DNA of 64,000 nucleotides from an uncultured bacterium (lineage in GTDB: Bacteria; Bacillota; Clostridia; Oscillospirales; Oscillospiraceae): positions 1 through 64,000 of the forward strand of contig CAMTMC010000008.1 of NCBI GenBank assembly GCA_947073515.1, written 5' to 3'. The position numbers were made by a program, and so were the translations under genes. Of the stretch, positions 1 to 32,426 are shown piece after piece (the first letter of the stretch is position 1; each line of letters starts with the position of its first letter). A model generated the notes under the pieces. That model did no database searches. It saw nothing but the letters and a program-made list of their open reading frames with translations, and was not told the origin of the DNA.

Positions 1-3
1 GCC

Positions 4-999
4 GTGAGCATTAAGGATAATTCTTCAGAGATAGAGCGGTATTATAAAGCCGACAGTTTGCCTCTGTTTGAAATCACATTTCCCAAGCTGGATGAAAATA
101 CGCAAAAGGAATGGCTGGAAAAGCTCTATACTGACGGGGATTTTGCGTTCTTCTCTGTTGCGGCCCGTTGGCTTGACACAAATTCCGCTTTGTTTACCGG
201 CTTCGCCGAAAAAGCGTATGCCGATGAGGAAATGGCGTTTTTCTCCATCCTGACGGACCGCATGGACGAAGCGGAGCTGGAGCTTTGGCTGGACAGGGCT
301 TTGGAAGATGGAAACTGGGCATTCCAATCCATCCTTTTTGATAAACTGAACCGAGGCAAAGAATTTGACGAGCTGGAAGAAAAGCAGGAGAAAGAATGGG
401 CCGAAGCGCAGGCGGCGCAATACCGGGCTGTGGGCGTTACGATGGATGAAAAGGACTATTACTACCAGGGCCAGCTTGTCAACATCTTTTTAGACATACG
501 GGCCAACAGAGCCCTTCGCACACTGAATATGAATCCAAAAGGAACTGTCAATATCAAAATTGTCCGTGACGCAAATAACAACATCACAGGCGTTTCCTAT
601 ATGACCGAAGCGGAAGTGGTTGAACTGCTGGGGGACGTGAATGACTTGGATGATAAAACGGAAATCATCCCCACTGTTTTTGAGACCGTAGCGGCGGGAG
701 AAACCATCTCCTTGGGGGAATACACGTTGTCCGACGGGGACGAAATTTTGTATGACATTTCAGCGAAAACAGGGAACAGAATGAAAGTCTTTTTTGCGAA
801 GGGCGGGCAGGAAGATGTGGCCTATTGGTCCGTGAGTAACCCGCGCCAGCCGGGTGAGCCGCTGGAATGTATTGCGGATTTTATTGTTGGGCCTCCGGCA
901 ACAAAACCCGGAACCTATCAGCTGTACCTCCAAGCCCCGGACGGCCCTTTGGGAACTGTAAGGGGCAGCGTTTCGATTGTGTCAGCAGACGCGTCCTGA
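4..999 (+). CDS. C-terminal part of a larger protein, resembling the C-terminal region of M56/BlaR1-like membrane proteins; probably truncated by the window edge
   Basis: ORF open from the window start (GTG at 4); acidic repeat-like 'FAFFSVAARWLD...MAFFSILTDRMDEAELELWLDRALEDGNWAFQS' region; recalled similarity only. Confidence 0.5.
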   Translation: MSIKDNSSEIERYYKADSLPLFEITFPKLDENTQKEWLEKLYTDGDFAFFSVAARWLDTNSALFTGFAEKAYADEEMAFFSILTDRMDEAELELWLDRALEDGNWAFQSILFDKLNRGKEFDELEEKQEKEWAEAQAAQYRAVGVTMDEKDYYYQGQLVNIFLDIRANRALRTLNMNPKGTVNIKIVRDANNNITGVSYMTEAEVVELLGDVNDLDDKTEIIPTVFETVAAGETISLGEYTLSDGDEILYDISAKTGNRMKVFFAKGGQEDVAYWSVSNPRQPGEPLECIADFIVGPPATKPGTYQLYLQAPDGPLGTVRGSVSIVSADAS

Positions 1000-1012
1000 T
1001 GATATTCAACAC

Positions 1013-1216
1013 TTCTGTCTTCGCCGGCTTTCGCCCTCTCTGCTTGGGTACTCCAGGCTGCCCTCTCCCGTGTTCTCTCCACAGCAGCCGTTTAACCACA
1101 TATTGATCTTTCAACCCAAGTTCTTCCACTATTTCCCGCTGACTTTTCCCTTCTGCTGCCATCCTTATGAACCTCGGGCAACAGTTTTTGCACATGCCTA
1201 TGGTTCCTTTTTCCAT
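1013..1216 (-). pseudogene. Truncated IS3-type OrfA-like helix-turn-helix fragment
   Basis: Translation MCKNCCPRFIRMAAEGKSQREIVEELGLKDQYVVKRLLWREH...KQRGRKP then runs into unrelated sequence; the usual downstream transposase is absent. Confidence 0.5.
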
Positions 1217-1221
1217 TACAT

Positions 1222-1256
1222 GGCCCCCTGTGTAGTATTTTCCTACACAGGGGGCC
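1222..1256. terminator. Perfect 14-bp hairpin followed by T-run
   Basis: GGCCCCCTGTGTAG-tattttc-CTACACAGGGGGCC then TTTT. Confidence 0.7.
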
Positions 1257-1344
1257 TTTTGTCTACTGCCTGTTTTTACTGGAGCGGTTCATTCACTAGC
1301 CGGGTCTCCCTTTCCTATGTTCAGTCAACGGGGCAAAATGAAAA

Positions 1345-2211
1345 TCACTGGGCGGAGGCGGTACACACGGCGTCCTGGCGTTGATCCTCCCGGGCCCGGG
1401 CCCGCTTGCGGTACTCCAGCGGGCTGATGCCCATCTGGCGGCGGAAGGTCTGGGAAAAATAGCTGGGGGATGAGAAGCCCAACATGTGGGAGATCTGGGC
1501 CAGGGAATGGCTGGTACCCTCCAGCAGGCGGCGGCTCTCCTGAACCCGGCGGGAGATCAGGTAGCTAATGGGGGACACCCCGTACTCCCGGGAGAAGGAG
1601 TGGACCAGGTAGTACTTATTCACATGGACCAGCGCCGCCAGCTGATCTAAGGTGATGCTCTCCTTAAAGTGGGCGTCAATATACAGGCGGACCACAGCGC
1701 ACTCCCGGCTGGACTTCCGGGTGCCGGACAGGGGGGCCAGCTCCAGCCGGAGCCCCCGGGACAGCCGGATCAGTACCACCTCCAGCAGGTTTTGGCACAC
1801 CAGCTGGAAGCCCTCCCGCTGCTGGCCGCTCTCCTCGACCATCGCCCACAGGAGCGGCCGTAGCTCCCTCAGAAGGTCGGGGAGAGGGGCCGATATCCAT
1901 CCCGCCGCCGGGGCCAGCAGGGCGCTGGAACCCTCTACCCCCAGCACGACACAGCTCATGGGGGCGGACCCCTCGCTGGCCTGCGCGTGTTCCACGCCGG
2001 GGCCGATAATCAGCAGGCCCCCGCCGGCCAATGGATGGGATATGCCCTGGATCTGGAAATACCCCCTGCCCTCCAACACAAAAACCAGCTCTGAACCAGT
2101 GTGGACATATGAAGGGGCAGGCCAGTCCGGGGAAAAACTCTTCTGGCGGGCATAGAGCAGCCGCGCCTCGGGCCGGTTGACATTTTGGGCAAGAAGGGAC
2201 ATGGGGCACAT
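1345..2211 (-). CDS. AraC family transcriptional regulator (cupin sensor plus C-terminal HTH)
   Basis: C-terminal 'ITLDQLAALVHVNKYYLVHSFSREYGVSPISYLISRRVQESRRLLEGTSHSLAQISHMLGFSSPSYFSQTFRRQMGISPLEYRK' is a classic AraC HTH. Confidence 0.92.
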   Translation of the reverse strand: MCPMSLLAQNVNRPEARLLYARQKSFSPDWPAPSYVHTGSELVFVLEGRGYFQIQGISHPLAGGGLLIIGPGVEHAQASEGSAPMSCVVLGVEGSSALLAPAAGWISAPLPDLLRELRPLLWAMVEESGQQREGFQLVCQNLLEVVLIRLSRGLRLELAPLSGTRKSSRECAVVRLYIDAHFKESITLDQLAALVHVNKYYLVHSFSREYGVSPISYLISRRVQESRRLLEGTSHSLAQISHMLGFSSPSYFSQTFRRQMGISPLEYRKRARAREDQRQDAVCTASAQ

Positions 2212-2398
2212 TTCCTCCTTTTACCGGCCTGATCAGGCCGGCCGTCATCCGTTATCAAGCTAAAAATGGGTATAAACATCCTATTTATCACTATAACAGA
2301 AATATCTCTAAATTTCAAGTATTTATTGACAATTTTCCCAAAAATATTGCCCCGTCGGGGACATCCATCGCCGCTGTCGGGACCGGACCCCCCACAAA

Positions 2399-3970: not shown

Positions 3971-4177
3971 ATGGAAGGCAAAAAATGTCCCAAATGCGGG
4001 AGTGAAGATATTTTGAATGGAAGTTTATCCTCTCCATACGGATTTACCTTTACCCCCAACAGCCAAGATAGGCTATTTAAAAAGAGTTCCTTTATCCTTT
4101 GTTCCGCTTGCAAAGATTGTGGCGCTGTATTTGACTTTACTCTGTCAGACCAACCCAACAAGCTCACAAACAGATAA
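3971..4177 (+). CDS. Small zinc-ribbon protein
   Basis: CPKCGSEDIL...CSACKDCGAVFDF, two Cys pairs. Confidence 0.55.
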   Translation: MEGKKCPKCGSEDILNGSLSSPYGFTFTPNSQDRLFKKSSFILCSACKDCGAVFDFTLSDQPNKLTNR

Positions 4178-4185
4178 GTTCCAGT

Positions 4186-5037
4186 TTATCGGGGGGATTT
4201 CATCTTTGGGGTGAAATCCCCCTTGCCAAACCTTCTCTTAATGTAGTCAACCAGCAGGAACATCCACGCCAGCAGGAACAGAACCGATACAGACAGCAGA
4301 TCCCACACATCAAAGACAGGCTCCTCCGTCAGCTTTGACAACACGATATTGATGATCAGTGTCAGGGGGATCCCCAACAGACACAGGAGCCCGGAGGCGG
4401 CCCAGATCCTCTCCCGCCCCACACGGCGGAAGACAACGGCGGCGGCCCACAGAAAGGCCACGGATGGCACCGCCACGGCCCCGCCCACGGAGAACACCTC
4501 TTTTATCTGGATCAACCGGCTCAGCAGGAACAAATACGGGAGGAGAAACACGCTGCCCGACAGGAGGCTTGCCATAATCCCTCTTTTTCCCAGCAGGATG
4601 CTCGGAAAAACAACCGCCCAGGCGAAAACAATGGAGATGACCGGGATCAGGGACCAGGTCAGGCGGCCCGATGCAGCCAGATCGCAGATCAGGCACACCA
4701 TCCCGCCAGTGAACAGGGCCGCCGAGAACAGCATGGAGAGCACCACATTCCTCGCCCTGTGATTCTCATCGCTCCGCTTCAGGGCAATCAAGTTTTCATC
4801 CGCCTTTTTTTCAAAAGATTCCGTGCCAAGCCTCTCCCCGCTCAGCAGTTCGTTCACTGTAATGCCTAAAATTTCACACAGCTCCAGCATGAGGGAGGCG
4901 TCCGGCATACTTTTGCCTGTCTCCCATTTGGAGACCGCCCGGTCCGTAATGCCCAGCTGTTCCGCCAGCTGAGACTGGGTCAGCCCCTTCTCCTTCCGGC
5001 ATCCGGCGATAAACGCCCCAATCTCTGTTTGATTCAT
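4186..5037 (-). CDS. XRE-family transcriptional regulator with C-terminal membrane segments
   Basis: N-terminal MNQTEIGAFIAGCRKEKGLTQSQLAEQLGITDRAVSKWETGKSMPDASLMLELCEILGITVNELL; hydrophobic C-terminal half. Confidence 0.88.
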   Translation of the reverse strand: MNQTEIGAFIAGCRKEKGLTQSQLAEQLGITDRAVSKWETGKSMPDASLMLELCEILGITVNELLSGERLGTESFEKKADENLIALKRSDENHRARNVVLSMLFSAALFTGGMVCLICDLAASGRLTWSLIPVISIVFAWAVVFPSILLGKRGIMASLLSGSVFLLPYLFLLSRLIQIKEVFSVGGAVAVPSVAFLWAAAVVFRRVGRERIWAASGLLCLLGIPLTLIINIVLSKLTEEPVFDVWDLLSVSVLFLLAWMFLLVDYIKRRFGKGDFTPKMKSPR

Positions 5038-10317: not shown

Positions 10318-12602
10318 TGGGCTATGTGAACAGCCGTATTCGGAAAAAGGACGCCATGGGGCTGGTCACCGGAAAGCCAGTATACACCAGCGACCTGATC
10401 TCCAAAAACGCCCTGGTGGTGAAGCTTCTGCGCTCCCCCCACGCCCACGCCCTGGTGGAGCGGATCGACACCAAAGCGGCCCTGCTGATTCCAGGCGTGG
10501 TGGCGGTTTACACCTGGGAGGACGTGCCCCGGAGCCGGTTTACCACCGCCGGACAGACCTACCCCGAGCCCAGCCCCTACGACCGGCTGATTTTAGACCG
10601 CCGTCTGCGGTGCGCGGGCGACCCGGTGGCCATCGTCGCCGCCGAGAGCCAGGAGGCGGCCCTGAAGGCCCTGCGGCTCATCAAAGTGGACTACCAGGTG
10701 CTGGAGCCCCTGCTGGACTTCACCCAGGCCCTGGACAACCCGATTTTAGTCCACCCCGAGGAGGACTTCCGCCCCCTGTGCCCCGTGGGGGCGGACAACC
10801 GGCGGAACCTGTGCAGCGCCAGCTCCTTCGAGACCGGCGATGTGGAGGAGGTTTTTGCCAAATGCGACCTGGTACTGGAGCGGACTTACCGCACCAAGGC
10901 CAACAACCAGGCCATGATGGAGACCTTCCGCACCTACTCCTACCTGGACGAGTATGGCCGGCTCACTGTGGTCAGCTCCACCCAGGTGCCCTTCCACGTA
11001 CGGCGCATCCTGTCCAACGCCCTGGAGATCCCCAAGGCCCAAATCCGTGTCATCAAGCCCCGGATCGGCGGGGGCTTCGGGGCCAAGCAGAGCGTGGTCA
11101 GCGAGCAGTTCTCCGCCTTTGTCACCCTGAAAACCGGCCGTCCGGCCTGCATTATCTACACCCGGGAGGAGAGCATGACCAACGGTTCCCCCCGGCACCA
11201 GATGGAGCTGCGGGCGCGGATTGGCGCCGACCGGGAGGGGCTCATCCGGGCCATTGACCTGTACGCCCTGTCCAACGCCGGGGCCTACGGCGACCACGGC
11301 CCCACCACCATCGGCCTGGCAGGCCACAAGTCCCTGTCCCTCTACGGCGGGCTGGAGGCCGCCCGCTTTACCTGCGACGTGGTGTACACCAACACCATGG
11401 GGGCCGGGGCCTACCGGGGCTACGGCGCCACCCAGGGCATCTTCGCCGTGGAGAGCGCCGTGAACGAGGTAGCCGCCGCCTTAAATCTGGATCCCTGTAC
11501 CATCCGGGAGAAAAATATGGTGGCCCAGGGGCAGACGATGCCCACCTACTACAACGAGCCCTGCAACAGCTGCGCTCTGGACCGGTGCATGGCCCGGGCC
11601 AAGGAGCTGATGGACTGGGAGAGGAAGTACCCCGCCAGAAAACTGGACAACGGCCACATCCGGGCCGTGGGCGTGGCGATGTCCATGCAGGGCAGCGGCA
11701 TCTCCGGGGTGGACATCGCCAGCGTGGAAATCCGGCTGGGGGACGGCGGCTTCTACACCCTGCTGGTGGGCTGCACCGACATGGGCACCGGCTGCGACAC
11801 CATCCTGGCCCAGATGGCCGCCGACTGCCTGGACTGCTCCATTGACCAGATCGCCGTCCGGGGGGTGGACACCGACCAGTCCCCCTACGACACCGGCTCC
11901 TACGCCTCCTCCACCACCTATGTCACCGGCATGGCGGTGGTCAAGACCTGCCAGGAGCTGCGGGAGAAGATCCTGGCCGCCGGGGCCCGGCTGCTGGGCG
12001 TATCGCCGGAGCGGGCGGAGTTTGACGGCGGACGGGTTTTCCTTCCGGCGGACGGCCGGGAGGTCTCCCTGACCGCCATCGGGGAGGCCGGCGTGATGGG
12101 GGACAGCAGGGCTCTCTCCGCCACCCAGGCCCACTCCTCCCCCATCTCCCCGCCCCCGTTTATGGTGGGCATGGCGGAGATCGACCTGGACCCGGACACC
12201 GGCGAGGTGGACGTGGTGGACTATGTGGCGGTGGTGGACTGCGGCACGGTGGTCAACCCCAACCTGGCTACCGTCCAGACCGAGGGCGGCATTGCCCAGG
12301 GCATCGGCATGGCCCTGTACGAGGACATCCAATACAGCCCCCAGGGGCAGCCCCGGAACAACTCCTTCCTCCAGTACAAGATCCCCACCCGGCTGGATCT
12401 TGGGAAAATCCGGGTGGCCTTTGAGAGCAGCTATGAGCCCACCGGCCCCTTCGGGGCCAAGTCCATCGGTGAGCTGGTCATCAACACCCCCGCCCCGGCC
12501 ATCGCCAACGCCGTGGCCAACGCCACCGGGCTGTTTTTCCGGGAGCTGCCCATCAAGGCGGAGGACATCGCCCTGGGGCTGGCCCGTCGGGATGGAGGTT
12601 GA
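10317..12602 (+). CDS. Molybdopterin-binding catalytic subunit, xanthine dehydrogenase family
   Basis: RIGGGFGAKQ, GAYRGYGATQG, PTGPFGAKSIGE motifs; TGATG overlap with upstream stop. Confidence 0.93.
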   Translation: MGYVNSRIRKKDAMGLVTGKPVYTSDLISKNALVVKLLRSPHAHALVERIDTKAALLIPGVVAVYTWEDVPRSRFTTAGQTYPEPSPYDRLILDRRLRCAGDPVAIVAAESQEAALKALRLIKVDYQVLEPLLDFTQALDNPILVHPEEDFRPLCPVGADNRRNLCSASSFETGDVEEVFAKCDLVLERTYRTKANNQAMMETFRTYSYLDEYGRLTVVSSTQVPFHVRRILSNALEIPKAQIRVIKPRIGGGFGAKQSVVSEQFSAFVTLKTGRPACIIYTREESMTNGSPRHQMELRARIGADREGLIRAIDLYALSNAGAYGDHGPTTIGLAGHKSLSLYGGLEAARFTCDVVYTNTMGAGAYRGYGATQGIFAVESAVNEVAAALNLDPCTIREKNMVAQGQTMPTYYNEPCNSCALDRCMARAKELMDWERKYPARKLDNGHIRAVGVAMSMQGSGISGVDIASVEIRLGDGGFYTLLVGCTDMGTGCDTILAQMAADCLDCSIDQIAVRGVDTDQSPYDTGSYASSTTYVTGMAVVKTCQELREKILAAGARLLGVSPERAEFDGGRVFLPADGREVSLTAIGEAGVMGDSRALSATQAHSSPISPPPFMVGMAEIDLDPDTGEVDVVDYVAVVDCGTVVNPNLATVQTEGGIAQGIGMALYEDIQYSPQGQPRNNSFLQYKIPTRLDLGKIRVAFESSYEPTGPFGAKSIGELVINTPAPAIANAVANATGLFFRELPIKAEDIALGLARRDGG

Positions 12603-25718: not shown

Positions 25719-26849
25719 TCATGGGGCCCGCTCCTTAAAGGAGAGAAGTTTGTCCCGGTAATATTCATACTGCTTTTTCCGCGCCTCGATCTCGGCGGGC
25801 AGGCCGGAGGCCAGGTCGTTGCAGAGGGCATCGAAGCGGTCGAGGATAGCGACGATTCGATGTTGGACAGAAAGAGAGGGAATCGGAATATGAACTGTTT
25901 GCAAATCACCAAGATTTAATGCGGGCGTTCCCCCCTCATTTTTCTTTTGTAGTATCTTTTTACTATTACTGCAAAGAAAGTAATACAAAAATTTATTGCA
26001 AATGATATTAGATTCTTTTGCTCTAATTCCATAGCACAATGGGCCAAGCCAAAAAGGATTTTTTTGGTATCCGATAAACCCAATTCCCCCCTGTCCTCTA
26101 GACGGGGTTGTAACTGTATCTTCTGGAAAAGAAAAATCGGTTGTATAGCCCGAATTAGAAGTCCCAGCGTTGATATACTCAAAAAAGCCTTCTTTCAGAA
26201 CGATTTTAGGTCTTCTTCCCGTTCTAATATCTGCGATTTCCCCGAGTGCCCGCCATACAACATCACTTGCCCCCATTGCAAAGACATCAAAGGTCAGCAG
26301 TTTATCCCGATAGTATTCATACTGTTTCCTTCTCGCTGTCACTTCCAGAGCAAGCTGTTCTTGCAGCTGTGCCGTCACCTCCGTGAATTTGTCAAGAATC
26401 TTTACAATTTCACTCTGCACGGGCAGAGGGGGGATAGGAATTTTTATCATCAATAAGTTTTTACCTGTAATATGTGGAACCCCACCGCCTTTTTTCATTG
26501 TATTTATAAATATTTGCATATTTTTTAGAAAGTAGTACAGAAAACGAATGTCTAATTCCTGTTTTGCCTCAATGATAAATCCATCGGTTACAAAAATGGG
26601 TTCATCCCAATAGGATACAAACCCAGCAGAAGCACCACTTCTTGAAATCACAATCGCTTTACCATAGTGATTAGCCTTATCAATATAGTAAGCAGGTTCT
26701 TGCCCTCCCAGTATTACGGGAATATTGCCTAATTTAGCAGACTTCTTTGTGATATAATCTCCTCGGGATAACTCGCAACATTCTTTCAAGAATTTATATT
26801 CCACCCCATCCGGGCAAAGCTCCTGTATCAATTCCTCCAGCCTGCTCAT
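25719..26849 (-). CDS. hsdS: Type I restriction-modification specificity subunit HsdS (copy 1)
   Basis: Two TRD-like halves each ending in R(K)KQYEYYRDKLL(T/S)F conserved repeats. Confidence 0.9.
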   Translation of the reverse strand: MSRLEELIQELCPDGVEYKFLKECCELSRGDYITKKSAKLGNIPVILGGQEPAYYIDKANHYGKAIVISRSGASAGFVSYWDEPIFVTDGFIIEAKQELDIRFLYYFLKNMQIFINTMKKGGGVPHITGKNLLMIKIPIPPLPVQSEIVKILDKFTEVTAQLQEQLALEVTARRKQYEYYRDKLLTFDVFAMGASDVVWRALGEIADIRTGRRPKIVLKEGFFEYINAGTSNSGYTTDFSFPEDTVTTPSRGQGGIGFIGYQKNPFWLGPLCYGIRAKESNIICNKFLYYFLCSNSKKILQKKNEGGTPALNLGDLQTVHIPIPSLSVQHRIVAILDRFDALCNDLASGLPAEIEARKKQYEYYRDKLLSFKERAP

Positions 26850-26884
26850 GCTCTCACCTCGATTCCCGCAATGATCTGGAAGTC

Positions 26885-28174
26885 TCATCCCGCGAAACCC
26901 GCGCCCGCGCTGACACGGACGGCGGCGTCTACAATCAATTTCGCGATGTCTGAACACTCATCCATTGTCTGGCGGTATCCAATTTCCCGCAAATAGCGGC
27001 CGATATCACGTGAAATAACGGCCTGCAGCTGTTTGCGGACGGGCCAATCGATATTAGCGTTTTTTGAGAATATCTGATAGACAGCGTCCGCTGTTGTCGG
27101 ATCAGAAACATAGCCGGATATGATACCATGAAGCTCCATAGGCACTTCAGCCTGGTGCTTCGTAAATTCTTCTGGCCGCTCGGGAGAAATATCAATCGTG
27201 TCTGGAGCTGTAAAATCAATTTCGCGGTCCACATCCGGCTCACTGTCTAAGTCCGGCTGGTGGAATAGGATGGGCGGCTGTAGGCGCTTATGGGCGATAT
27301 AGTTCATTTGATGGTCCAGTTCTGGATACATCGAGGCCTCATTAAAGTTATACTGGTCCAGTTCACGGAGTATTTCCGGCTTTAGCGCGGAAGGAATCAC
27401 AATTTTATGGGTAAACTCCTCCAGCAAATTTTCCTGGGTTTTCTCAAATACGGTATCCCAGACGCTATCCCGCAAGACCGGCTTAATGCACCCGCAGAGG
27501 AGGAACGCGCCCTGTTGGTGCTTGATGCGGGAGTTATCCAAATTGGGCGAAACAAAATAGTTCCGGCCCACCATACTGATCAGTTCATCTGCCAAAGGGG
27601 AGCCTTGCTCCATCGCGGCCATAGAAAGATTAATATGCCCCTTTTCCAGCTCAAGCCACAGTTCCCGCAGAGAAATCCCATTGATATTCAGATGAGCGAT
27701 CAGAGATAGGAGCTGAACCGGTTTTGACGCGGGGTCACAGGGATAGGCATGGGTTATATATACCGCCGCGTCACGGTCGGGGTTATGTTCACAGGCGAAA
27801 TACAACGCCACCAGAGGATTTTCAGTTACATCCAGCAGCCTGGTGGGCAAACCATAATGCTGCAATTTTGTCAAGCGCTCAAAGTTGGTCAGGCCCTTGG
27901 CCAATTCATTGGGGCTTTTCCGGATGGCGTCATGGATCAGTTCATGCTCATAATTCAAGTGCCCGTCTCGGAATACGCTGGGGTTTACAGTCCAGGCCTC
28001 ATCAGATTGGCCGCGAAAAAAAGGGACCATACCAAACTCATGATTTGTGGCGGAGAGGTTTATTTTATGGGTTATGTACATATATTTAGCGAGCTGGGGA
28101 ATGAGCGCGGATTCATCCTGAACATCTCTTAGCTCGATATGCTCCAGCAGGATAGTTTCTAGTTGATTATCCAT
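26885..28174 (-). CDS. FRG domain-containing protein
   Basis: VPFFRGQSDEAWTVNPSVFRDG...LTKLQHYGLPTRLLDVTENPLVALYFAC, the FRG-domain signature. Confidence 0.85.
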   Translation of the reverse strand: MDNQLETILLEHIELRDVQDESALIPQLAKYMYITHKINLSATNHEFGMVPFFRGQSDEAWTVNPSVFRDGHLNYEHELIHDAIRKSPNELAKGLTNFERLTKLQHYGLPTRLLDVTENPLVALYFACEHNPDRDAAVYITHAYPCDPASKPVQLLSLIAHLNINGISLRELWLELEKGHINLSMAAMEQGSPLADELISMVGRNYFVSPNLDNSRIKHQQGAFLLCGCIKPVLRDSVWDTVFEKTQENLLEEFTHKIVIPSALKPEILRELDQYNFNEASMYPELDHQMNYIAHKRLQPPILFHQPDLDSEPDVDREIDFTAPDTIDISPERPEEFTKHQAEVPMELHGIISGYVSDPTTADAVYQIFSKNANIDWPVRKQLQAVISRDIGRYLREIGYRQTMDECSDIAKLIVDAAVRVSAGAGFAG

Positions 28175-28262
28175 TTTATAAAGCTCCTAATGAATTTGAG
28201 AACCTGTATGATAACCAAAAGGCTGAGGGGAAAGCCGTGGTAAGAAAGCGCTTATCCTTGTC

Positions 28263-29522
28263 CTAAAGTTCTCCGGACATTACCAGAGGCAGCAAATGAT
28301 CCCGGATCGCAATTAAAAGCTGGTTTTCTTTCTCCAGGTTCTTTTGGTAGCGGGTCAAGTAATCTGTTTTTGTCTGGAACAGTTCAAGGATGCGTGAATC
28401 AGGAATGATAACCCGCAATTTTTTCAATTCGGCTCCGGATATCTCTTGGAAGGTGCTGCCGGATGCCATATTTGTGATCTCCTCCGTTTTATTCAGCAGC
28501 AAATAATAGAGATAGGCACTTCCAATTCCTTCCTTTGGAATGATAGAGCGGAACCCTTGATTTGTTGTGAGTTCATTGGCGGCAATCGCGATATAGCCAA
28601 TCGGCGCGCGTGAGCTGAACAGCACGGAGCCTGTTGGCAGAAGGGTTGCGTTGGAAGAGTCAAATCCCTTCTGGGTAATATTGGCCGCCCCCCGAGCAAT
28701 AAACTTCAGCTTTGACTGCGACAAATCTTTCGGGGTAATCCAAGGGATCCCCCCCTCTGATGTATAATTCGCGCTGATTTTTTTGGAGGGGGTCCCGCCA
28801 GCCACAATTTCCCCTAGGTCAGACAGGCATCCCTCGGTCCAGCCGTCTGGAATATCTCCGCGGCCGTTATCATGAAAAGAGCCGTCATTCTGTTTATAAG
28901 GGGCATTATGATCGTTCGGAAAGTTAAAATCAATAAACCAGGTCCTGAAAAGCCGCTTCAGTATTGACTCAAGCCGCTGGCAAACCTCGTTGTTTTTTTG
29001 AATTTTGAGATCAATCGCTGACAAAGACTTCGCAATCGAGCGCTGTTCCTCATAGGGGGGGATCAAAAATTTGCTTTTCAAGAAGACCGGAAGATTAATA
29101 TATTGGCTGCGGGAAGACCCCTCTAACGCCCGGAGTGCCAGTTCCCGGAACCACGGAGTAATAGCCAGGTAATATAGGAAATCCGGATCCGTTACCTGTG
29201 GAACAGCCCGCAGCACCATATACCAATTTGAGCCAACTCCCACTTCATCGGGATCTAGTATTGTGACTAACGCGGTTTTTTTTCGCGTGAGGGCAGAAGA
29301 TATCTTAGGAAAAAGTACGTCACAGTTCCGAAATTTGCTTCCTCCGCCGGTATATTCCACTTCTTCAAACCCATTAATGAACTTATGGCACGGTTCCAGT
29401 TTGTCCAAATTAACTTGTTTCACAATACTGCCTTTTTCGATGTGCTCCTCTGGGTTACAGATAATGATATCCTGTAATTCTTTTTCCTCCCAGCCAGAAG
29501 ACACTTTATATGTCATATCCAA
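28263..29522 (-). CDS. hsdS: Type I restriction-modification specificity subunit HsdS (copy 2)
   Basis: EEQRSIAKSLSAIDLKIQKNNEVCQRLESILKRLFRTWFIDF conserved central region; start overlaps hsdM stop by 17 nt. Confidence 0.9.
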   Translation of the reverse strand: MDMTYKVSSGWEEKELQDIIICNPEEHIEKGSIVKQVNLDKLEPCHKFINGFEEVEYTGGGSKFRNCDVLFPKISSALTRKKTALVTILDPDEVGVGSNWYMVLRAVPQVTDPDFLYYLAITPWFRELALRALEGSSRSQYINLPVFLKSKFLIPPYEEQRSIAKSLSAIDLKIQKNNEVCQRLESILKRLFRTWFIDFNFPNDHNAPYKQNDGSFHDNGRGDIPDGWTEGCLSDLGEIVAGGTPSKKISANYTSEGGIPWITPKDLSQSKLKFIARGAANITQKGFDSSNATLLPTGSVLFSSRAPIGYIAIAANELTTNQGFRSIIPKEGIGSAYLYYLLLNKTEEITNMASGSTFQEISGAELKKLRVIIPDSRILELFQTKTDYLTRYQKNLEKENQLLIAIRDHLLPLVMSGEL

Positions 29523-31011
29523 GTTCCTCCAAAGCTTCTTTCAATTCCCATTCCAGCCGATGGTTCTCATGGAGAACGTTTTTCAACTCTTGTGTAAGCT
29601 CATTCAATGTCGCCTGACATGCTTCAACATTTACTACGGAACTAGAAATTCCAATGTACCGGCCGGGCACCAAAGAGAAATCATTCTCCCGAATCTGCTC
29701 AATACTGGCTGCCGCGCAGAAGCCATCCTCGTCCTGATATCCCTCGCCATCACGGTAGGTGCGCACCTTATTGGATATCCGCGCGATCTGCTCCGCAGTC
29801 AGTTCTTTTTTTACGCGGCCAGATGTGTCCGTGAGCGCCCTGGCGTCAATAAATAAAACATTGCCTCTTTCGCAAGGCTTTTTTGCCTTGTTGATAAACC
29901 AGAGGCAGACGGGGATTGCCGTGTTATAAAACAGATGGCTTGGCATAGAAATGACGCACTCCACCAAATCGGCGCAAATGATGTTTTTTCGAATTTCATC
30001 CTCCCCACCGGATTGTGACGTAAGACTTCCGTTTGACAAAACAGCCCCCATTCTCCCGTTAGGCGCCAAGTGGTATATCATGTGCTGGAGCCAAGCGTAA
30101 TTCGCGTTTCCGGCCGGAGGTATCCCATACTGCCAACGAATATCACCCAACAACCGTTCCGCCCCCCACTCAGACATATTAAACGGCGGGGAAGCAAGAA
30201 TATAATCCGCCTTTAAATCCGGGTGGAGGTCCTGTAGGAAGGAGTCTGCGTTATATTTTCCTACGTTGGCCTCAATCCCATGAATCGCGAGATTCATAAG
30301 GCACATTTTCCATGTTGTGGGATTGCTTTCCTGTCCATAACAGGAGATATCATTTTTACTGCCTTGATGATTTGTAATATCCTTGACCGCATGTATAAAC
30401 ATCCCGCCGCTGCCGCAGCACGGGTCATAGAGGCGTCCGCCCTTTATATCAAGAGATTGAACCAAGCTTTTGACAATTCCCGCTGGAGTATAGAACTCTC
30501 CCGCGCGCCGTCCCTCTTGTTCCGCGAATTTGGACAGACAATATTCATAAGCGACACTGAGCAAATCGCTGTCTGCTTTTGTGTCAATTTGCGTGTCGAA
30601 TAGCATCATCAGGTTTGTTAGCCTGTTTTGGTCCAACTCCGCGCGGGCATAATATTTTGGCAGAATACCCTTTAATTCTGGGTTATATCTCTCGATATAA
30701 TGAATCGCTTCATCAATATAATGTCCAATGTGGGGCGTATCGCAGTGCTCCATAATCACGCTCCATCGGGCTTCAGGAGGGATAAAATATATGCCGCAGC
30801 TCATATATTCAACCTCATTATTTTCATATCCAAGATTTCCCGCTTTGAGTTCTTCGTACTTGCGTTCAAAGCGTTCCGAGATATATTTTAAGAAAATAAG
30901 TCCCAGAAACACCTGTTTATATTCGGATGGATCCATATTTCCGCGCAACGTATCCGCCGCGGCCCAAAGAGTTGCTTTAAATTGATCAACTTTAAGAGAA
31001 TTGTCCGACAT
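29506..31011 (-). CDS. hsdM: Type I restriction-modification N6-adenine methyltransferase HsdM
   Basis: LYDPCCGSGGMFIHA and YILASPPFNMSEWG (NPPF-like) motifs; HsdM N-terminal domain. Confidence 0.95.
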   Translation of the reverse strand: MSDNSLKVDQFKATLWAAADTLRGNMDPSEYKQVFLGLIFLKYISERFERKYEELKAGNLGYENNEVEYMSCGIYFIPPEARWSVIMEHCDTPHIGHYIDEAIHYIERYNPELKGILPKYYARAELDQNRLTNLMMLFDTQIDTKADSDLLSVAYEYCLSKFAEQEGRRAGEFYTPAGIVKSLVQSLDIKGGRLYDPCCGSGGMFIHAVKDITNHQGSKNDISCYGQESNPTTWKMCLMNLAIHGIEANVGKYNADSFLQDLHPDLKADYILASPPFNMSEWGAERLLGDIRWQYGIPPAGNANYAWLQHMIYHLAPNGRMGAVLSNGSLTSQSGGEDEIRKNIICADLVECVISMPSHLFYNTAIPVCLWFINKAKKPCERGNVLFIDARALTDTSGRVKKELTAEQIARISNKVRTYRDGEGYQDEDGFCAAASIEQIRENDFSLVPGRYIGISSSVVNVEACQATLNELTQELKNVLHENHRLEWELKEALEELGYDI

Positions 31012-31125
31012 ACTGAAGCCCTCCGATCCATAGATTAAGAAGCTGTACCAGTCGCCTCAGCCTCCATCTTTGCGGCCTAAATTGCCGCTGGTTATTTTCC
31101 ACTTTTCAAACGGCGCTTTTGGTAT

Positions 31126-31154
31126 ATTATATCTTATCACGCAAGAAATTTCAA
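31126..31154 (-). promoter_or_regulatory. Promoter of hsdM operon
   Basis: Minus strand TTGAAA - 17 bp - TATAAT. Confidence 0.75.
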
Positions 31155-31382
31155 CAAAATTGTCCTGTTAGGTCGTGAGTTCAGACAGTATGTGCCCGCC
31201 ATCCAGACATTTTGCCGCTTTTCAAATAAGAAGCTGTACCAATCGCCTCATCACTTTGGCTCATGGTACAGCTTCATACTTGTTCAAATTCTCCCGTTTA
31301 TTTCGGATAACAATACAAACTTAAACCTCACACCATAAAAACAAGAAAGGTTTCAAAGGATCCGTCAGAAAACGCCCAATGG

Positions 31383-32426
31383 TCAAACACGCCTCAGAAG
31401 TTCCTCCAGTCCTTGGGGATAGAATCGCTCAAACGCCGCCGCCAGTTCCAGCAAGTTCTCCGTGCTGATACCTCGTTTCCCCTCCTCAATCTGATGGACC
31501 ATCTCAATCAGCTTTTTGCTCATGGGCAAATCCAGCCCCTGCTCCTCACCCATTTCCACCGTGACGCCCACAGTGCCATCTATCTCGCTGCGGCGTTTTC
31601 GTACAGCCAGATCCCGATAAAGGCCAGTGTAATTTTTCACCATGGAACGGTAATGGTCAGCCGTCACCCGCATGGCCTGCTGATATCTGCCCTGCCGGTA
31701 TAGCTCCGGGGCAAAGTCATCATGGGACTCCAAAGGGATCCCCATCTTTGCGGGAACCTGCATGGCTTCTAGCGCGAGGCTGGCAATCGCCTGCTGAGAG
31801 GGTTCAAATTCCATGCCGCCGGGAATCAGCAAATGAGAAATGCCGGTCGCGAACATCGCGCTGATATTGACCTGCTTGCTCCATAGCCGGCTCATAATAT
31901 GGGACGTGACCTCAACCGGTTGGAAGGGAGAACAGAAGTCCCGAAGCTCCAGTATCCGGGGGGTAACGCGTCCGTCCAATTCGCCGATGGAAAAGTGGCT
32001 GTGAATTCCGAACTGGATCACACCGGGCTCAATGTAGTCGGCGGCCCAATTCACAAAAGCGCCTACCACCCGTTCCTCCCCTACATATTCGGCGATCACA
32101 TACTCGTTCAGCCCGTTTTGCAGGCTGACCACATACCCGTCTTTCTTTAGCAGCGGGGCAATTTTTTCCATAGCGCCCCGGGTGTGCTGGGTTTTAGTGG
32201 CCAAAAAGACCACTTCCATCGAATCGGCAAGGTCATCCATCAAAACCGCCTTGACCGGAACAGTAAAGTCTCCTCCGCTGGGATCCAGAATGGTGAGGCC
32301 TTTCTCGTTCATGGCCTGGACATGTTCAGGGATAACGTCCACATAGAGGATATCCGCGCCGCTCCGGGAGAGCCAGGCGGCCATAGATCCGCCAATCGCG
32401 CCCGCTCCAACCAACGTATACTTCAC
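31383..32426 (-). CDS. Ketopantoate reductase family (PanE/ApbA) oxidoreductase
   Basis: MKYTLVGAGAIGGSMAAWLSRSGADILYVD Rossmann motif; PanE C-terminal region. Confidence 0.88.
   Translation of the reverse strand: MKYTLVGAGAIGGSMAAWLSRSGADILYVDVIPEHVQAMNEKGLTILDPSGGDFTVPVKAVLMDDLADSMEVVFLATKTQHTRGAMEKIAPLLKKDGYVVSLQNGLNEYVIAEYVGEERVVGAFVNWAADYIEPGVIQFGIHSHFSIGELDGRVTPRILELRDFCSPFQPVEVTSHIMSRLWSKQVNISAMFATGISHLLIPGGMEFEPSQQAIASLALEAMQVPAKMGIPLESHDDFAPELYRQGRYQQAMRVTADHYRSMVKNYTGLYRDLAVRKRRSEIDGTVGVTVEMGEEQGLDLPMSKKLIEMVHQIEEGKRGISTENLLELAAAFERFYPQGLEELLRRV

Follow-up and report, generated by a model that had tools for sequence, protein, structure and literature searches.

An FRG-domain protein as a candidate replacement for HsdR in a type I restriction-modification unit of an uncultured Oscillospiraceae bacterium

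We examined a type I restriction-modification (R-M) locus in a 64,000-nucleotide stretch of DNA from an uncultured Oscillospiraceae bacterium of the gut (contig CAMTMC010000008.1, G000:C8:1-64000; this whole stretch is hereafter the window), where a gene for an FRG-domain protein follows hsdM and a first hsdS gene (hsdS1). On comparative sequence evidence, we lean, with modest confidence, towards reading hsdM-hsdS1-FRG as a type I system of derived form, with HsdR lost and the FRG protein in its place. The genes of the block are as follows.

29506-31011, minus strand: hsdM, 501 amino acids; Pfam HsdM_N (6e-25) and N6_Mtase (3.5e-100)
28263-29522, minus strand: hsdS1, 419 amino acids; Pfam Methylase_S (5.7e-37)
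26885-28174, minus strand: FRG gene, 429 amino acids; Pfam FRG (1e-19)
25719-26849, minus strand: hsdS2; Pfam match at 7e-59

An hsdM-hsdS1-FRG unit without hsdR

Open reading frames (ORFs) and Pfam domains agree with the original prediction, made from the sequence of the window alone, that hsdM, two hsdS genes and FRG form one same-strand block encoding HsdS proteins of different type (HsdS1 and HsdS2 give a weak local match only). The hsdM and hsdS1 genes overlap, and gaps of 88 and 35 bases separate hsdS1 from FRG and FRG from hsdS2, respectively; hsdS1 probably starts at the ATG at 29516, as in related loci of a Lachnospiraceae metagenome-assembled genome (MAG; locus L041) and a Lawsonibacter MAG (L042), both likewise from gut bacteria. 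The same prediction held that no hsdR adjoins the block, and named an hsdR elsewhere that pairs with this HsdM as one thing that would refute its account. The adjacency claim was borne out by our searches, with hsdR absent from the 64-kb window and, in the source assembly (2.38 Mb, 65 contigs, 94% complete), no match to the SWI2_SNF2 and HSDR_N profiles (of 14 control genomes, 10 match the first and 9 the second) or to the HsdR protein of a relative used as query. No hsdR pairing with the window HsdM was thus found genome-wide, an absence that is a statement on the assembly, as the hsdR of a second type I system, on contig C24, may lie on unassembled DNA. The sole T1RH-like_C match in the whole source genome was the FRG protein's own tail.

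The closest relatives of the FRG protein (47-48% identity, full length) were those of L041 and L042, where hsdM-hsdS-FRG is followed by unrelated genes with no adjacent hsdR. The L042 genome gave no SWI2_SNF2 match, and both strong hsdR matches of the L041 genome sit in their own M-S-R operons with distant HsdMs. The HsdMs of the window, L041 and L042 form one clade (support 100/100) on a long stem, which we call R-less; the fork just below the root of the HsdM tree is poorly supported, which leaves the placement of its exact sister weak. Where the sequence is long enough to tell, nearly all other loci of the HsdM family retain hsdR, and the simplest reading is that this clade lost it. The viral contigs, phages and plasmids searched held no close R-less relatives. 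In L041, a gene for a 1270-amino-acid SWIM/SNF2 helicase (L041:7187-10999, plus strand) begins 28 bases 3' of FRG, and we took it as a probable neighbour, less likely a partner, because it is absent from both the window and L042.

The FRG protein ends in an HsdR-type tail

Structure prediction and alignments divide the FRG protein into three parts.

27281-28174, minus strand: FRG/ADP-ribosyltransferase (ART)-like core, residues 1-298, with the FRG Pfam match at residues 52-133
27143-27280, minus strand: variable linker, residues 299-344, mostly of low predicted local distance difference test score (pLDDT)
26909-27142, minus strand: HsdR-type helical tail, residues 345-422, 'NIDWPVRKQLQAVISRDIGRYL', matched by T1RH-like_C

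The AlphaFold2 model that we used, built on a 58-row alignment (pLDDT 88.5; a 3-row alignment gave pLDDT 36), shows two confidently modelled parts, the core and a separate four-helix tail, with a disordered linker between them. Residues R54, G55, R69, Q105-H106-Y107, D115, R216 and Q220 of the core are invariant, and Frg has been placed in the ART superfamily with a suggested NADase activity (PMC9503650), a placement to which the model lends weak fold support. The three R-less FRG proteins share a conserved tail stretch (residues 365-416, 'DW..RKQ.QA.I.R.I.RYL' in their alignment).

Searching FRG tails against Pfam, we found that T1RH-like_C ranked first for 13 of 14 (best E 8.7e-7), with every other family matching at most one tail; the full window protein scored 20 bits, under the Pfam gathering score of 26.8, and the case for tail homology therefore rests on the set of tails. 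Significant matches to an HsdR C-terminus profile were confined to hsd-linked FRGs (14/22 long hsd-linked versus 0/16 long unlinked proteins, Fisher p 3e-5), and profile-profile comparison of FRG tail and HsdR C-terminus gave E 5e-7 at a probability of 92%, versus E 0.56 and 0.1% for an unlinked control. By these profile comparisons the FRG tail is homologous to the HsdR C-terminus. Many hsd-linked FRGs (~296 amino acids) are without it. Since R subunits touch the type I core via M (PMC3874165), and a methylase contact has been proposed for the HsdR C-terminal helical domain (PMC5248579), the HsdR-type tail suggests that the FRG protein may dock on HsdM.

The window protein also matches PADLOC PDLC04927 (PDC-S15) over nearly its full length (E 1.5e-86), a family entered in PADLOC as a candidate whose mechanism is unknown; in the window, unlike in that listing, FRG is tied to HsdM and HsdS and its tail is identified. 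A scan of genome contigs with the single FRG protein as query gave no match, and in the literature searched, which left subscription papers mostly outside its coverage, no paper ties FRG to type I R-M. FRG relatives of unknown function also occur in P2-like phage genomes and many enterobacterial plasmids, and one phage copy (L225 320-1684; Peduovirus P22H1 30979-32343) has no hsd gene annotated beside it.

An altered HsdM active site and fixed HsdS target domains

The HsdM of the window departs from its relatives at a catalytic motif.

30181-30192, minus strand: HsdM motif IV, residues 274-277, S-P-P-F, in contrast to NPPF in all other relatives examined

Motif I (DPCCGSGGM) is intact, as are the residues of the AGEF pocket. 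Motif IV reads ASPPFN in 3/3 R-less HsdMs versus NPPF in 62/62 others, these being 32 distinct family HsdMs beside FRG loci (all ANPPFN) and the 30 nearest Clostridia HsdMs (NPPF), and nine columns invariant in the 32 are changed in all three R-less proteins, including N274S and R244H. In the type I enzyme PacII, an N276A/F279A mutant of NPPF was impaired in methylation (PMC9613975). Because the change to SPPF hits the Asn of the motif mutated there, the R-less HsdM has probably lost N6-methyladenine (m6A) activity, the main alternative being a switch to N4-methylcytosine (m4C). SPP[FYW] is the typical motif of m4C enzymes, and SPPF is the usual form in several.

HsdS has been held fixed in the same clade. 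At HsdM identities of 64-69%, HsdS identity among the three R-less loci is 56-66%, whereas for 217 other pairs whose HsdMs are 60-80% identical the median HsdS identity is 28% and the highest 49% (the pairs are not mutually independent; the contrast is large). Window HsdS1, the cognate S of its operon, shares 62-66% identity with the HsdS proteins of L041 and L042, target domains included, and within the R-less HsdS proteins the target domains (55-72%) mostly lie above the spacer regions (47-61%). Ordinary type I HsdS proteins swap their target domains; judged by these identities those of the R-less clade are frozen, and a single DNA sequence seems to be what the system requires.

These features could instead reflect modification without restriction: the SPPF HsdM would methylate a fixed site, as m4C or still as m6A, to regulate genes, and FRG would ride along incidentally or as a regulator. 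Fixed HsdS would fit such regulation, the S-adenosylmethionine motif I and the AGEF pocket are intact, and type I M subunits that make m4C exist, carrying NPPY (PMC9613975). We nonetheless regard this reading as improbable, as FRG and its HsdR-like tail are retained in 3/3 loci and SPPF replaces the very Asn that, mutated together with Phe, cost PacII its methylation. Less credible still is that the locus is decaying, with hsdR gone, HsdM dying and FRG hitch-hiking: the missing HsdR and the changed catalytic motif would look this way, but all three genes remain intact in three lineages that are deeply separated, span two families and share 47-68% identity, and selection is indicated by an Asn-to-Ser change that is the same in each, by frozen target domains and by a conserved tail beside a variable linker.

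FRG proteins in the type I operons of relatives

We collected FRG relatives by whole-genome and GTDB scans and annotated their neighbourhoods with profiles made from window and relative proteins. Same-strand hsd genes adjoin FRG in 42 of 80 GTDB loci, mostly in the order hsdM-hsdS-FRG-hsdR, and such hsd-linked loci occur in Bacillota, Bacteroidota, Spirochaetota and Pseudomonadota. An uncultured Eubacteriaceae MAG carries a 1370-amino-acid ORF (L052:4929-9041, plus strand), part of an hsdM-X-hsdS operon, in which an FRG domain at the N-terminus is fused with a complete HsdR. The expectation that FRG placement would be conserved was therefore upheld for a position after hsdS and before, or in place of, hsdR, and failed for one between two hsdS genes.

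The usual slot of FRG in relatives, between hsdS and hsdR, is that of PrrC in the Escherichia coli prr locus (EcoprrI and PrrC), ordered hsdM-hsdS-prrC-hsdR (PMC3014915). PrrC, an anticodon nuclease, is a latent toxin that stands guard over the restriction enzyme (PMC12707154; PMC3506569), and Makarova et al. 2012 describe type I R-M loci to which toxin genes are coupled (PMC3506569). In prr a toxin-type effector gene occupies this slot, as FRG does in relatives; unlike in prr, the window effector is FRG/ART-like rather than an ABC-ATPase/HEPN ribonuclease and has an HsdR-type tail, and its clade is without hsdR and changed in HsdM motif IV.

A PrrC-like guard is accordingly a rival to be weighed: a latent FRG toxin would be restrained by the Hsd complex and freed when a phage protein (Ocr, ArdA or Stp type) disables that complex, with the R-less M2S1 serving as cage and bait. 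Its appeal lies in the shared slot and the latency of PrrC with EcoprrI (PMC3014915), in the coupling of toxin genes to type I loci (PMC3506569), in the frequent switching of FRG presence along the HsdM tree, as for an exchangeable rider, and in the altered HsdM catalysis and fixed HsdS, which fit a decoy. No trigger is known for it, however, and the HsdR-type docking tail suggests that in the R-less clade FRG replaces HsdR stoichiometrically. We consider the guard rather unlikely; it overlaps with the replacement reading and differs from it mainly in the trigger.

A second HsdM and the place of HsdS2

The source genome encodes another HsdM, which is type IC-like (C24:767-2335), and after it an HsdS broken by the contig end.

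Contig C24 (L131, G000:C24), 1-2335, minus strand: hsdM and cut hsdS, a second type IC-like pair in the genome of the window

HsdS2 and the C24 HsdS are 34% identical over 222 residues, with DNA stretches 80-86% identical; the two HsdMs share 26% identity; and neither L041 nor L042 has an hsdS 3' of FRG. HsdS2 is probably the specificity subunit for the C24 HsdM, HsdS1 and HsdS2 probably do not share one HsdM, and the core unit is hsdM-hsdS1-FRG. The earlier proposal of a methylation-only system with an exchangeable specificity subunit is not supported, given the altered motif IV, the frozen target domains of HsdS1 and an HsdS2 that looks like the partner of another HsdM. We also dropped the idea that hsdS1 and hsdS2 undergo exchange or inversion, as the repeats are an internal HsdS2 repeat and matches of chance size. 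Extra, partly opposite-strand hsdS pieces beside a ~330-amino-acid gene give an invertible-hsdS look to the relatives L022, L044, L056, L187, L199, L205, L206 and L212; the window has none.

The C24 pair bears on one further alternative, namely that an ordinary type I enzyme arises with an HsdR acting in trans, encoded by the C24 system or by unassembled DNA. The contig stops inside hsdS, its hsdR is probably off the contig, and the assembly is incomplete; set against this, a shared HsdR is unlikely for HsdMs as distant as these, no hsdR lies beside the L041 and L042 operons, and the search of the L042 genome yielded none. We therefore hold an HsdR in trans to be very unlikely.

Genomic setting

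The block is flanked by panE on one side and opp permease genes on the other. Its G+C is 0.40-0.50 versus 0.56-0.63 over most of the flanks and the FRG gene is absent from the sampled congeneric genomes, because of which we consider the block probably acquired; an empty insertion site was sought in the genus, and the flanking opp gene had no strong match in 20 congeners. Repeats of TGAGGCGAYTGGTACMGCTTCTTA lie 5' of hsdM (window 31036-31059, 31227-31250 and 31264-31275), and L042 has repeats of this type at 4050-4215 and 10373-10536, two inverted pairs of ~165 bases, one of them far from hsd. The repeat is probably a dispersed element resembling a miniature inverted-repeat transposable element, and the idea that it is an operator for HsdS1 was dropped given the further copies elsewhere in L042.

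Proposed mechanism and its weighing

In the replacement reading, the M2S1 core would bind a fixed DNA sequence, and the FRG protein would dock on HsdM by its HsdR-type tail, tethered via the flexible linker. Once the core meets its trigger, which could be target DNA or an anti-restriction protein, the ART-superfamily FRG domain would consume NAD+ or ADP-ribosylate a target and thereby stop the infected cell or abort the infection. Because the SPPF core probably no longer makes m6A, its role may be closer to that of a DNA-binding sensor or decoy than to that of a self-marking methylase. Taken to its end, this would make a catalytically dead methylase core (SPPF HsdM with frozen HsdS) a fixed-sequence sensor or anti-restriction decoy that gates a docked FRG ADP-ribosyltransferase/NADase and performs neither methylation nor restriction, a version that we advance only tentatively.

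That FRG could substitute for the restriction subunit, as originally suggested, is supported in part, by the HsdR-type tail, the usual place between hsdS and hsdR and the three-genome M-S-FRG clade without R; docking itself is something we infer, as are enzymatic activity and the defence role. Several points weigh against replacement. Residues 47-269 of the modelled FRG core align to many ART folds only weakly (Z 3.5-5.6, the best being 5.6). Neither Foldseek/VIA against the PDB, which gave no HsdR-like match for the tail, nor a tail profile against PDB sequences, which matched only a designed repeat protein, extended the likeness to HsdR. Tailed FRGs are also found in operons that keep hsdR, such that the tail alone does not imply replacement, and FRG tails are no nearer to the HsdR tail of their own operon than to other HsdR tails (p 0.60). 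Finally, the R-less loci known here number three, two of them from MAGs and all in incomplete assemblies.

Compared with classical type I R-M (EcoKI, EcoR124I), the unit has HsdM, a two-domain HsdS and, within its effector, the HsdR C-terminal helical module; unlike those enzymes its clade is without the HsdR nuclease and motor, carries SPPF rather than NPPF and does not diversify its target domains. Of the features that define type I R-M, HsdM and HsdS in one operon are thus present, while HsdR (in the locus and the incomplete assembly) and a motif IV of NPP[FY] are absent. MADS also combines a type I-like M (MAD2) and S (MAD5) with other effectors, and the window gives weak MAD2 and MAD5 matches; at 44/720 and 24/400 bits these fall far under the NCBIfam cut-offs, and ordinary HsdM and HsdS would score alike. 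The known kind is type I R-M with an embedded effector, of which the window clade is a variant.

If the replacement reading is true, the HsdR position would be a modular docking site for a different effector and would take the PrrC case a step further, from rider to replacement, and the unstudied candidate defence family PDC-S15/FRG would gain a specific partner and a docking surface. If HsdM is in addition dead, a restriction enzyme would have been turned into an immune sensor, for which the tail, S274 and the frozen target domains offer handles.

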